A DNA stretch of 64,000 nt from Tubulanus polymorphus (lineage: Eukaryota; Nemertea; Palaeonemertea; Tubulaniformes; Tubulanidae), in NCBI RefSeq assembly GCF_964204645.1, contig NC_134030.1, positions 5,392,278 to 5,456,277 of the forward strand. Direction: 5' to 3'. The notes beneath the pieces were generated by a model. It ran no database searches. It was not told the DNA's origin and saw only the letters and a list, made by a program, of their open reading frames with translations. The position numbers were made by a program, and so were the translations under genes. Shown here in pieces: positions 2,793 to 26,059 of this stretch; the first letter of the stretch is position 1; each line of letters starts with the position of its first letter.

Positions 2793-7540
<4,748 letters not shown>

Positions 7541-10079
7541 AACGGAAACGTTCTAGAGTAGAACTTTTCATGAAAGGTCGATACGTAGAATTTTGAATAT
7601 ATACTAAAAACATTGAATGAAAATTTAGACCATAACCCACATTTTTGAATTGGATTCTAAGAAAGTGGAATTTACTATTGAACTCAAATGCGGTATGATA
7701 ATGTAAGTATTTTCGATTTTTGTTCGTAAAGGAAACTAGGTCATATTCATTTCAAAAATGACTTAGGGATTCAATTTTTCGTTAGTTGATATGAATAATC
7801 ATGGAAAGAAATATTCTACCGGCCGATAACAGATCTCACGCGTGCAAGAATGTTGTATAGTTATTCCGTAATAATATATATTCATTGCACGACTTGTACA
7901 GCTCAATAAATAGTATAAAACGGAACACTAATATGAATATCTATATGAATGATCTATCAGTGAATCGAATAATTATTCTTAAGACTTTCCACTCAAAAAC
8001 GCGAATATCTTTTCAACTACTCGATGAAAAAATAAGCCTATGGAATATTCATTTAACCGATGATTATATCTCAAAATGAATGTATGGGATGATTAATTTT
8101 TTCATAAAGATAGTAATTAAGGTCATATCGTTGTACTGGGGAAAGCGCAATCTCTAGACAGCGTACGATTGTATTATCTTTAAATCGGTCGTTGGAATAC
8201 ATTGAGTCTACGAGAAATAATCGGAAACTGGATAAATATTTCCATTTTTTCAAAACTTTCGAAAAACTTGAAAATCTCAAACTTTCAATACATTTTCAAT
8301 GTATCCGACGTACGGTATTATGATCCAACGATTCCCAAATATCAACGAATCGTCTAAAAAGATATCGTAGAAATCAATCGAATTGATGAACATTATTATT
8401 CTACACATTCGTTCTGGGTGCATTTCTTAATGTAAATATATATATATAGAATTTACATTAGTTGATCTTTTTCTTGCAAAATACGGTTTATGGTGAAATA
8501 ATAATCAAGCTCACAGTCGGGGTACAAGGAAAAAAGAGTTGTGTATATTATTTTATTGAACTTTTAATTTATTACTTATTTTCATTTTATTACCACGTGT
8601 CGTTGCATATACATGTATATAAATAGTAAACGTGCACGAATGTAAAAAGTGAAACACGACGATGTGGCTTGTGTATTTATAGAATTCAGTCTGACCAACA
8701 TGACCGTCTCATTTTTAAATGTAAAAGATAACTAGTAATATATGTGAGTTAGACTTAGAGAATGATTATTGTATTGTTCCAAGGAAACTATTTTGTCTGT
8801 GACGTTGATATAGATACTCGATCCGTGTAGAATTTTATGCTAATCATTTCAAACTATAGGTAGGTCGATTATTATTTCCTTAGTATTTATTCTATGTAGG
8901 GCGGAGCCTTCTTTTTTATTCATGAATTTACAAAGGTCTTTTGTTAGGCTCGAAGCCGTCGGTGTTTTATGTCTTTTAGTTTCGGGCTTTTCCGCTAGTC
9001 GGCGGTAGCTTTGAAAGCCCCGGTTCGCTATAATACGAGTGGGAGATTTTTGCAGGGTAAATGAATAACACTATTTCTCTCTTATTTCACGGTGGCGTGT
9101 ATAACGTGTTATTATGTGAATACCACCGCATTAGAATATACATTATATAGACATATATGAATATATTTTGTAGAATATGCATTCGTAATTAGTCTCAACG
9201 TGAAATAAAAAATGTATACATGTCATGTGACTCAACTATTGGTCAATTCAATGTCTCCCGTCTGCTCAGTTGCTATGGAAACCAATCGGGGAATGTCACG
9301 TCAGTTTTGTCATGTTTGCAAAGACGTCTCAAACACAATGAGGGACCGTGAGTTCATACTTTTTATGATAACACAATTTTCAACACGTGAATCGGCCTAG
9401 ATAATGTATGTTGATTTTTATGACTTCTCTTTGACTTGTTTATGGCCGTTGCATTGAATAGGTACATATACTAAATGCAAGAGCGAATAATGCATGTGTC
9501 TAGGGTTGATCTACACCGCGTACCAAAAGGTACCCTGTTCGGCTTAGGTTTTTGTCCCTTTTGACATGTTTACGAGGTACTGTGTACATAATTCTACCAG
9601 CTGGTATATACCGCGTGCATCGGGGTTCCATTGTCTGTTTAGGCAAGGCTTCACCAAGCGATGCATTGAAAAAAAGAGGGTTAGTTGCATTTCACCGGAA
9701 AAATCAGACGGAGGTATTATGCTTACTTGCGCCGGTACGCGAGTTGATCTTTCGACTTCGTCCGTGGCGTTCTCGTGTTGTTAGCCAGCCGGTTTTCCAT
9801 TGGATTCGCGATTTATTTGATTACGCGTACGTATACATTAAATTATTCATAGCATCAATGCGACTAGGCTTAAACGACATTTGAGACGAAAAATATCTGC
9901 GTCGCTTTATGCGATAAGAATTGATGGTATCGGCGTTAACCTTGGGAAGGCAAATTGACATTCAGAACAGCTAATACGACTATATTTATGTATTCCTCGG
10001 TTTGCCGTGTTATCCCTCGCGTTCGAATTCGGAATCCCAGATCACGCGGCGTAATTCAAAAATGGAAAGTTCACCGGAT
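7541..10079 (+). other. Antp 3' UTR and downstream flank
   Basis: AT-rich sequence after the Antp stop codon. A candidate poly(A) signal AATAAA is at 7905-7910, and further AT-rich, UTR-like sequence continues to about 9200, including another AATAAA near 9205. The true 3' end cannot be placed. A TGTAAATA (Pumilio-like) string occurs near 8432. Short open frames here (for example 9552-9884) have no recognisable domain. Confidence 0.45.
7905..7910 (+). other. Candidate Antp poly(A) signal
   Basis: Canonical AATAAA 365 bases after the Antp stop codon. Other AATAAA strings occur farther on, so this may be only the proximal of several sites. Confidence 0.3.
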
Positions 10080-10183: not shown

Positions 10184-10415
10184 TCGCGGACACCAGTTAT
10201 CCGTGGCGTGATAAATCGCGTTCGTGATTGAGCCGACATTTCCCGATCATTTCTGGACCCTCGACGAATGACATGATTACTTCTAGCGGTCTGTATAAGT
10301 AATCAGTGGTAGTGTATGAAATATTCGCCCCCGGATCAACAATACAGACACCATGGCGATGACCGATAAACAGATATCGAATAGATGCGGGTTGATTCGT
10401 ATGAGGAAATGGCGG

Positions 10416-10492
10416 GTTTCTACGTACCCTGTAGAACCGAGCTTGTGTTAAAAATAATAATTCACAAGCCATTCTACAGTGTACATTGAAAC
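10416..10492 (+). ncRNA. mir-10: mir-10 family microRNA precursor hairpin
   Basis: The 5' arm at about 10425-10447 begins TACCCTGTAGAACCGAGCTT, with the complete seed ACCCUGU of the mir-10 family and a 3' half like mir-10/mir-100 (ending CUUGUG). The 3' arm at 10463-10484 (CACAAGCC then ATTCTACAGTGTAC) pairs back along almost its whole length, leaving one mismatch opposite the seed and a small internal loop. The terminal loop is about 15 bases of AT-rich sequence (10448-10462). The stem extends below with GTTTC (10416-10420) against GAAAC (10488-10492). It lies between Antp and Lox5 in the same orientation as the Hox genes. Known mir-10 genes sit in Hox clusters near Hox4, and family members repress Hox mRNAs. 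Which mir-10 paralogue this is, and whether the opposite strand is also used, cannot be told from the window. Confidence 0.9.
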
Positions 10493-12283
10493 ATTTGCTA
10501 CTTACACCATCATGGCGCACAGATTCTGGTCGTAGGACTGCTGGACAGAAAATAAGAGCTATGAACTGGCAATTAATATTTTTCCGTTATACCCTTGACC
10601 AAATAACGAACATTTCCTTTCACTTAGAAAAATGTTTATTTCAGATCACGAACACGCTTAATAGAAATATATGCAGGTTTTACAGCATAAATCAGCCAAA
10701 ATGTGGAAGCGGTCTCATTACGTATTCGCATACGTGGCGAACCAGTCAGCCACGTATGCTGTCTGGCTGCCTACACACAACATCATACAAAAATACCTTT
10801 TCATACAAAATTCATGATTCTGGTTACTACACGTAGAGAAATCAAGAATTCAGTTTCCCCTACCACACACGTCTTTAAAGACCTTTGTTTAGAATTTGCC
10901 CCGTTTGAGGCCACAATGGCGTCTTTGTGATGATCAATAGAGCCGTCGCGATAGATGTCAAGGCGTTTTGAATGTTAATGCAATGGAAGCCTTCTCATGA
11001 ATTATTGACGAGTAGGAGGTGCTTGTCTTTCTCGAATATCGCACACACTGCATTCGCAACACTCTTCCATCCTAAAACAAGTATAAATTCGTATATGAAA
11101 ATATGCTTTTTGTCACAAGGTTACGTTAATTAATATCTGCCTTTAATGGCCAAAAACTGGAGAGTTCGTGGAGAGTTTGGAAATGAGGATTCGTCAACAG
11201 CCAGTGGTTAACGTTTGTAAGAAGTAAGAGAGCAACAAAAGCCCAAACGAAAACAACCAACTACGTATACCTTTTAGACAATATAATAAGCGTATAGCTG
11301 TGGTTTGAGAATGCGAGCAAATCATTTCATTTTGTCAAATTGTGTTGTTTTCAAAACAGATACTCTAATCACATTCGAAAAGGTGCTCTCTATTTCCCGG
11401 TGTAGCGCAACTAAAGTATAAACCCATGCACAAGAATCTATTCCGAGAGCTTAAGATACCAAGCTGAAGCAAGACGACGTATGCATGTACAAACAATAAG
11501 ACATAGGCGCCTATAGATAATCGACACTGATTTCTCCACATCGCGAATTTAAAAATGGGTCACAATCGTTTTCATGGGGCACAAACTTACGCGTTGAATG
11601 TAGGCGAATCCTTGATTTATTATATTTATTGAGGCTAGGCATTTTTATTGCGAGCGGTGGCCTTTGATGTTTGTTCACCCTATCAGTCTGCGGTTAAACA
11701 ACAAACGATTCATCTGTCCACTGGTTCTGATACACGCCGACCGAACCCTACATACACAAGTATTTTTTTCGTCGACAAATCGGTTGAAAATATAAAGTAA
11801 CTGCACCGGGAAACCTCGGACGCTTCTTTCAAGGGTCGCAGTACGACGTCCAAGGCCGGTGGAGCTTATTTTTAGCTTCCGTCGTTCCCAGAATGCCCTC
11901 GTTGATTACCGTGAACCGATATTGTTTCGAGAATCAAACGCTAATTTACCGAGAAATCTACAGAGCAAAGCGACACGGCGTTCATCATTGTGTTCAAACA
12001 AAATTAATCATTTCATTAATATTGTTGAGTGCGGCGCCCTCCAAGTACAACGTTTACCGTTTATTTTCACGCTCGGCGTCTTTGATGCTCAAGAAAATCC
12101 ATAAACAATTTTTTGATTTTCAAGTGCAAAAGAAATACACATTTTGCAAAAATGGACGAAATGTTGAACCCCACGATTTACCTGATTATCATAACCTATT
12201 GATAAAACACTCGGTGTTGTAACGAGTATGCGAAATCCCACAATAGTCATCTTTGTGAATCCTCGACGAGGGTCAGAGAATAA
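10493..12283. other. Antp-Lox5 spacer downstream of the microRNA
   Basis: Non-coding spacer that may include part of the primary microRNA transcript. It holds a perfect 11-bp stem hairpin at 10728-10759. The open frames at 10486-10836, 11859-12104 and 11893-12222 overlap one another and show no domains. I see no exon, RNA gene or mobile-element protein. Confidence 0.5.
10728..10759. repeat. Perfect 11-bp inverted repeat
   Basis: GCATACGTGGC at 10728-10738 and its exact complement GCCACGTATGC at 10749-10759 flank a 10-base loop. It lies about 240 bases 3' of the microRNA hairpin. It could be a structured piece of the primary transcript, a palindromic protein-binding site or a repeat relic. 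The stem is too short for a typical miRNA precursor. Confidence 0.7.
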
Positions 12284-17263: not shown

Positions 17264-17351
17264 CCTGTCACTCTCGCATATTATCTCGTTGAACGAGGCC
17301 ATTCTGTAACGATTGTAGCGCTAATCATAGTCGTGTTTATAGAGCCGAATT

Positions 17352-17865
17352 ATGTCTTCTTACTATGGCAATGTCTTATCGGCTCCGATGCCCAACGGAA
17401 GTCCGGTGGAAACTTTTCAAATGCCGGACATCAAGTACGATACAAACTATAACCACCAAAACGGCGGCAGTCCGGACCACTTGGACATGCAAGCACCCGT
17501 GGCTGGCGGAATTTACCCGAGGTTTCCACCTTATGACAGGTTGGAAATTCGGCCGATAAACAACTCGAATCACCAGCGCAGTTACGGCTATAACGGAAAT
17601 GTTTACAGTAACATCGGTGGTGGAGGGACTAATTGCGGTAGCGCCAGCCCGCCCGAGGCTCGCCAGTACCCGCAATACAGCGAAAACATGGACTCTCGTT
17701 TCGCGAACGGACAATACTTGAACGCTGCCCAACAGGCTATGAATTCTCATTCCGCGTATGGTACTTGCAGCCCGACCTATGGCACGAATGCGATGACCGG
17801 AGGACTGCCCGGTGGCCAGAACAACTGCGTCATCTACCCGTGGATGAAAGCTACCCTTAACGGAG
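17352..17865 (+). CDS. Lox5: Lox5 (Hox6-like) homeodomain transcription factor, exon 1 (N-terminus and hexapeptide)
   Basis: First coding exon of Lox5, encoding residues 1-171 plus one base. ATG 17352 is chosen because it opens MSSYYGNVL, a form of the conserved SSYF N-terminus of central Hox proteins, and the frame then stays open to the hexapeptide. Residues 54-64 read IYPRFPPYDRL, a motif also present in insect Antp. The rest is rich in Asn, Tyr, Ser and Gly, as usual for Hox transactivation regions. The hexapeptide VIYPWMK is at residues 160-166 and would contact PBC/Extradenticle cofactors. The exon ends GGAG before GTAAGT (phase 1); the frame would stop two codons later if unspliced. 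A 170-codon open frame on the opposite strand is an antisense shadow. Confidence 0.92.
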
Positions 17866-18300
17866 GTAAGTACTGACTCGTTAGTCAATGTTCCGATAGC
17901 GCACTACAGAGGCACATTACGATAATTGTTATGGCACATTATGTTACTATTATTTATGTTTTATGACGGTAATAACCATTTTGCAGTGAATGCCTTAGAG
18001 CAACGATGGTGCTCGACCTGTCTCGTTGATGTTTAAGATATACACTCGTAAACAAATATAAAACTCGTGTGTTTTCAGTGTCATTTGTTCATATTTCGTA
18101 TTTTCCAAAACGTGATGACACATTTTATTTGCCAGGTCATCTTTTACATGCCAACTTTTGTTATCCGATTGGTGGCGCTTATATTGGTCAGTGAAGCCAG
18201 TTTCTTTTAATTTTCTGTGTGGCTTTGTATTATTAATTACTTCGTCGATGGTCGAACACGATGAGGACAAATGTCTTGCAGAAAACTCGATTGGTGGCGC

Positions 18301-25702: not shown

Positions 25703-26059
<357 letters not shown>

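Follow-up and report, generated by a model that had tools for sequence, protein, structure and literature searches.

A mir-10 family microRNA hairpin between Antp and Lox5 in the Hox cluster of Tubulanus polymorphus, with an inverted twin between Lox2 and Lox4

A hairpin carrying the mir-10 seed between Antp and Lox5 raises the question of whether a genuine member of this microRNA family resides there and, if so, whether it is an additional Hox microRNA, a relocated one or a lineage-specific paralogue, all of which were considered in a preliminary description of the locus. The window analysed is a stretch of 64,000 nucleotides (C6:5392278-5456277), and the genome searched along with it comprises 268 Mb in 77 contigs. 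The hairpin is real, and its identity as a mir-10 family precursor in the Antp/Lox5 interval is confirmed; its fold, its seed, its place, its paralogues, and the agreement of its arms with those of a twin whose loop has diverged are all observed directly. Very probably, it is a mir-10 family microRNA gene of the mir-10b/mir-10c type that has been reported from the Hox clusters of annelids and molluscs.

The forward strand of C6 carries Hox genes in the order Post2, Lox2, Lox4, Antp, Lox5, Scr, Dfd, Hox3, pb and lab. These names were assigned by reading the homeodomain translations rather than from a tree, and the placing of the animal among the spiralians depends on those of Lox5, Lox2, Lox4 and Post2; at least 115 homeodomain matches are present in the genome, and 34 were cut out and translated, including two with no readable homeodomain. 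The hairpin lies approximately 2.9 kb past the Antp stop and 6.9 kb ahead of Lox5, on the strand shared by both genes (Table 1). Polyadenylation words are found past Antp at 7905, 9204 and 9837, and the hairpin therefore need not ride on the Antp transcript. The spacing differs from that in an early assembly of Capitella teleta, where Antp is about 17.2 kb and lox4 90.4 kb 5' of lox5 (according to part of PMC2603591), whereas here the Antp stop and the Lox5 frame are about 9.8 kb apart and the Lox4 and Lox5 homeoboxes about 49 kb.

Table 1. Features of the Antp/Lox5 interval and of the mir-10 family loci on C6; positions without a contig prefix are counted from the first base of the window.
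Feature	Position	Strand	Remarks
Antp homeobox	7274..7444	+	stop codon about 7538-7540
mir-10 family pri-miRNA hairpin (basal stem, miRNA duplex, loop)	10410..10492	+	fold, R1 score
5' flank/basal stem strand, 13 nt	10412..10424	+	same in twin
Predicted 5p UACCCUGUAGAACCGAGCUUGUG, mir-10 seed ACCCUGU	10425..10447	+	ends inferred; same in C6:5358k twin
Terminal loop, 15 nt	10448..10462	+	twin loop 11 nt, dissimilar
3p arm, star strand	10463..10485	+	ends inferred; same in twin
3' flank, 26 nt, with CNNC words CUAC, CACC	10486..10511	+	same in twin
Lox5 first exon open frame	17343..17876	+	YPWM hexapeptide near 17832
Lox5 homeobox	25769..25939	+	
Near-identical inverted twin, Lox2/Lox4	C6:5357928-5358023	-	ACCCTGTAGAACCGAGC pattern search; absent from RF00104 rows
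Third paralogue with UACCCUGUAGAACCGAGCGAGUG, Lox2/Lox4 interval, about 5.4 kb before Lox4 homeobox	C6:5362968-5363037	+	RF00104
Window hairpin	C6:5402695	+	RF00104
Canonical mir-10, Scr/Dfd interval	C6:5479986	+	RF00104
mir-993-like hairpin, Dfd/Hox3 interval, opposite strand to Hox genes	C6:5524825-5524897	-	RF00104
mir-100, adjoining let-7	C6:8194961	-	RF00104; sixth row is its antisense

When positions 10400-10510 are folded, a single long hairpin of -33.8 kcal/mol is obtained, in which pairing of the basal strand reaches 10500. None of 200 dinucleotide shuffles (-18.63 +/- 3.06) is as stable. Animal microRNA hairpins are recognised by a stable fold with at least 16 duplex pairs and a loop of at least 8 nt; in this one, the 5' arm has 19 of its 23 bases paired, the loop has 15 nt and the fold has a z of -4.96. 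The first base of TACCCTGTAGAACCGAGCTTGTG is position 10425, and the seed ACCCUGU occupies nucleotides 2-8 of the 5' arm (10426-10432), as in members of the mir-10 family. The words CUAC and CACC in the 3' flank may be a processing motif of the CNNC type. A possible second precursor at 9531 (TACCCTGT) was rejected, with a fold z of +0.55.

The Rfam mir-10 model (RF00104) gives the window hairpin 33.0 bits (E 4.6e-4) in a genome-wide search, and because this is below the Rfam gathering score of 47.5 bits, nothing is listed when the 64,000 nucleotides are scanned with Rfam at gathering scores. Such a score would suit a decayed or non-expressed mir-10 copy, a pseudogene hairpin that has retained its fold. 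However, at 43.9 bits the canonical mir-10 found in this genome is under the cut-off as well; the cut-off therefore rejects true members and is not decisive, and the family name is kept. The stability of the hairpin speaks against a pseudogene, as does its agreement with the twin over 85 of 85 arm and near-flank positions beside a diverged loop, since changes should have accumulated in the arms of a dead copy as well. On balance, a pseudogene is very unlikely, and the reading as a mir-10 family microRNA gene is retained.

R1, a covariance model derived from alignment A3 of six hairpins, scores the window hairpin at 78.1 bits, a value that is no proof of membership, because the hairpin is among the sequences from which R1 was built. 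On both strands of C6:5300001-5392300 plus the window (156 kb), R1 finds the window hairpin, its twin and the third copy alone, the next matches having E values of 0.89 and weaker, and the absence of further mir-10-like hairpins from those 156 kb is informative within the reach of the model. Some gaps in the 3' arm of the A3 alignment of paralogues are doubtful. The consensus fold of A3 contains no more than 18 pairs, three of them changed on both sides, with an unfavourable covariation term (+1.83), and the structure is therefore not supported by paralogue covariation alone.

The RF00104 search of the genome reported six rows that represent at least five distinct loci, all on C6; because scoring covered 59 of the 22,151 first-look candidates, the locus counts are lower bounds. 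Five mir-10 family loci are located within the Hox cluster, two between Lox2 and Lox4 and one each in the Antp/Lox5, Scr/Dfd and Dfd/Hox3 intervals, and all have UACCCUGUAG in the 5' arm. The canonical mir-10 is separately present in its textbook place, the Hox4-Hox5 interval between Scr and Dfd. The window hairpin is thus an additional Hox microRNA, as had been proposed, and the alternative proposal of a relocated mir-10 is ruled out. The 5p of both hairpins opens with the same 11 bases, UACCCUGUAGA, and the two differ in place and in sequence, the window 5p continuing after base 10 with AACCGAGCUUGUG and the canonical one with AUCCGAAUUUGUG, in agreement with the altered 3' half noted previously.

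The remaining loci of the cluster vary in their similarity to the window hairpin. The one in the Dfd/Hox3 interval has the 3p GAAGCUCGAUUCUACAGGUAU, which together with its place marks it as a mir-993 look-alike. The 3' arm of mir-993 is the main product in flies, and by analogy the 3' arm of this locus may be the main product here. The third copy, in the Lox2/Lox4 interval 5 kb from the twin, has the first 18 bases of its 5p in common with the window hairpin and a 3p arm of its own; its fold is less distinctive (z -1.87, with 8 of 200 shuffles as stable). Three exact copies of the 17-mer ACCCTGTAGAACCGAGC are found in the 268 Mb searched, every one inside the Hox cluster: one in the window, one at 5362976 (+) and one at 5357993-5358009 (-) between Lox2 and Lox4. 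Two places, on C1 and C2, match it with one mismatch, and 14 match with up to two, compared with 8 for the reversed control.

The closest relative is the inverted twin, which lies outside the window between Lox2 and Lox4; when 101 bp of the window hairpin are searched against the genome, this copy and the hairpin itself are the only matches. It is a paralogue within the same genome, not an orthologue from another species. It takes the same fold as the window hairpin (-31.0 kcal/mol, z -3.68, with 1 of 200 shuffles as stable). Identity between the two is complete over 36 nt, made up of 13 nt of 5' flank and the 23 nt of the 5p arm, and over a further 49 nt that span the 3p arm and 3' flank, 85 of 85 positions in all. 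The loops, in contrast, have 11 and 15 nt and differ at 6 of 11 aligned positions and by a 4-nt gap, and the outer 100-nt flanks cannot be aligned (30% and 20% ungapped identity). The difference between loop and arms (6/11 vs 0/85) has a Fisher p of 5e-7, which is generous, as the limits of the blocks were placed at the points where identity stops. Arms that are conserved beside a loop free to vary, as seen between these two paralogues of one genome, form the pattern that selection on a microRNA would be expected to leave. A protein-coding origin of the conserved block was considered and is judged unlikely from the alignment, given the 4-nt change in loop length.

It is also conceivable, although somewhat unlikely, that the arms are alike through recent duplication or gene conversion of the inverted copies and not through selection on each, an explanation that is compatible with a functional microRNA. 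The edges of the block are abrupt, with 100% identity over 36 and 49 nt directly beside the unalignable outer flanks, and a short transposed segment would show such edges. Neutral copying, however, leaves unexplained why change is restricted to the loop. Gene conversion or recent copying could nevertheless help to keep the twin arms alike in a selected microRNA pair. A near-identical inverted twin of a Hox mir-10 was not found in the portions of the published literature searched, which is no proof of its absence from print, and this arrangement may be a lineage-specific trait.

Activity of the antisense strand, in addition to or instead of the sense strand, has a precedent in iab-4/iab-8 of flies (in a passage of PMC3394115) and is extremely unlikely here. 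The antisense of the window hairpin does score with both models (41.8 bits with R1 and 27.3 with RF00104), but the sense strand scores far higher with each of them (78.1, with R1 built on the sense strand, and 33.0). R1 also scores the antisense of all six mir-10 family loci searched, which is expected because the stem is near-palindromic.

The window hairpin can be compared with several known Hox microRNAs. In the relevant part of PMC6160089, mir-10b is described from annelids and molluscs and mir-10c from annelids; like these, the window copy is a Hox-embedded mir-10 paralogue that comes in addition to the canonical mir-10 and mir-993. The window hairpin fits mir-10b or mir-10c, and the presence of AACCGAGC in the 5p together with the same interval among spiralian paralogues would separate the one from the other. 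The suggestion of a lineage-specific paralogue in the preliminary description has not been borne out, as the mir-10b/mir-10c kind is reported in that part of PMC6160089 from well beyond one lineage. No published mature sequence with the core of the window copy was found among the highest-ranked main texts. Both mir-993 and mir-1991 belong to the mir-10 family, and mir-993 is embedded in the Hox cluster (parts of PMC3394115). The window hairpin has family and Hox-cluster location in common with mir-993, and the genome has a mir-993-like hairpin of its own at Dfd/Hox3 on the minus strand.

With mir-1991, which is located between Post2 and Post1 in oyster, Lottia and Capitella (passages of PMC4138081), the window hairpin shares the mir-10 family seed and the position inside the Hox cluster, and it differs in place and in its 3' half. 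Identity with mir-1991 was rejected: the window hairpin has the sequence UACCCUGUAGAACC and its place is the Antp/Lox5 interval, whereas the snail mir-1991 5p is of the UUACCCUGUUAUACUGAGAAG type (PMC7328434) and mir-1991 lies beside Post2. A mir-1991 candidate near Post2 (C6:5303027) was also rejected, with a z of -0.33 and 67 of 200 shuffles as stable. The mir-1991 pattern has a single match genome-wide at three mismatches, on C9, versus nine for the reversed control.

Extra mir-10 copies are also present in the Hox cluster of amphioxus, at Hox5/6 and Hox9/10, and mir-10 duplication and positioning in Capitella are described as similar to those in amphioxus (both in passages of PMC3394115). 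Amphioxus and the present genome are alike in having extra mir-10 copies at more posterior places of one Hox cluster; the places differ, being Antp/Lox5 and Lox2/Lox4 here. A mir-10-related gene is drawn in the Hox complex of the likely lophotrochozoan ancestor in a figure legend of PMC3290615. Since mir-10b, mir-10c, mir-993 and mir-1991 have been published from Hox clusters, the window copy adds to a known set. Extra Hox mir-10 copies as such are already known, and what is added here is the twin and the sites near anterior Hox genes.

For the latter, a site was taken to be ACAGGGU, the complement of the seed, and sites were counted after the stops of the ten Hox genes, as predicted by extending the homeobox frame of each gene (for Post2 a later exon may have been missed). 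Within 1.5 kb of the stops, 7mer-m8 sites are found at lab (two, C6:5635934 and 5636199), pb (one, 5603540) and Hox3 (two, 5566397 and 5566477, one of them an 8-mer). For these three genes, the five sites compare with a dinucleotide shuffle mean of 0.14, and no shuffle of 300 and no other word of 600 reaches five. The count is still five at 2.0 kb (0/300 shuffles and 0/600 words reach it) and at 2.4 kb (0/300 and 1/600), and at 1.0 kb it is a single site, which is not significant (23/300 and 49/600). Taking all ten genes at 1.5 kb, the shuffle mean is 0.46 and again none of 300 shuffles reaches five. The other seven genes, including Antp and Lox5, have zero 7mer-m8 sites at every length up to 2.4 kb, which does not amount to depletion because the shuffle means are only 0.22-0.36; one 7mer-A1 word occurs by Antp. 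The antisense word is found 0, 0, 1 and 3 times over the ten genes at 1.0, 1.5, 2.0 and 2.4 kb, versus five sense sites at 2.4 kb. If 3 kb after each homeobox is counted instead, there are seven 7mer-m8 sites (Lox2 1, Scr 1, Hox3 2, pb 1, lab 2), and 200 permuted words have a mean of 1.04 (sd 1.13); the Lox2 and Scr sites, at about 2.7-2.8 kb, are not part of the anterior group.

The sites are uninformative on the window copy itself, because mir-10, its paralogues and the mir-993-like 5p all carry one and the same seed. Nor do duplex energies set the window hairpin above the other same-seed copies. As judged from these predicted sites, the concentration at lab, pb and Hox3 appears to resemble the preference of vertebrate miR-10 for Hox1-3, which are chiefly its predicted targets (a review, part of PMC3394115). 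In zebrafish, miR-10 represses HoxB1a and HoxB3a in sensor and knock-down experiments, and HoxB2a is a predicted non-target (passages of PMC2148072), whereas the Hox2 gene pb does have a site here. In Drosophila, tests on Scr and Abd-B, the Hox genes predicted as miR-10 targets there, detected no role for the microRNA (part of PMC3290615), and these negatives speak against miR-10-Hox repression as a general rule. The literature passages on the extra spiralian Hox mir-10 copies contain no target analysis of them, and the parts of the published literature searched mention no concentration of seed sites at the lab, pb and Hox3 genes of spiralians, which does not prove that none has been published.

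By extension from the family, Drosha and Dicer would process a transcript from the Hox strand, and Argonaute would be loaded with the 5p UACCCUGUAGAACCGAGCUUGUG. The loaded 5p would repress mRNAs containing ACAGGGU, most likely those of lab, pb and Hox3. The window copy would then add dose, and perhaps a more posterior domain, to the canonical mir-10 seed, and the added repression would make Hox boundaries sharper, as has been proposed for vertebrate miR-10. A bolder interpretation, which we think unlikely, is that the five-locus cluster, with its shared seed and its sites at lab, pb and Hox3, acts as a graded microRNA device with several positions, through which posterior prevalence is repeated along the cluster, with a miR-10 to Hox1-3 circuit common to a protostome and the vertebrates and with two inverted copies whose arms are held identical. 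The five loci and the Hox1-3 site concentration make an origin of anterior Hox regulation by mir-10 before the protostome-deuterostome split testable, and site conservation across the 3' UTRs of spiralian lab, pb and Hox3 is the ground on which to test it.

Several minor observations concern the surroundings of these loci. There is no Post1 homeodomain among the 34 that were read out of at least 115 homeodomain matches, and no mir-1991-like hairpin was recognised beyond Post2 (C6:5300001-5318000); mir-1991 and Post1, neighbours in other spiralians, may be jointly missing here. The snail microRNAs miR-1985 and miR-1984, which are mollusc markers, have no match in the genome at up to three mismatches. 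A search for the erythrocruorin-linker family, an annelid marker, had no match, and neither had its controls. The 3-kb mir-100/let-7 locus shares its chromosome with the Hox cluster, and mir-100 and let-7 are separated by about 0.5 kb; among the matches listed for this locus, none is of the mir-125 type. Finally, two NK-type homeodomains with the same translated sequence are found 18 kb apart on another contig (C2:6935330 and C2:6953608), and are perhaps a recent duplicate.
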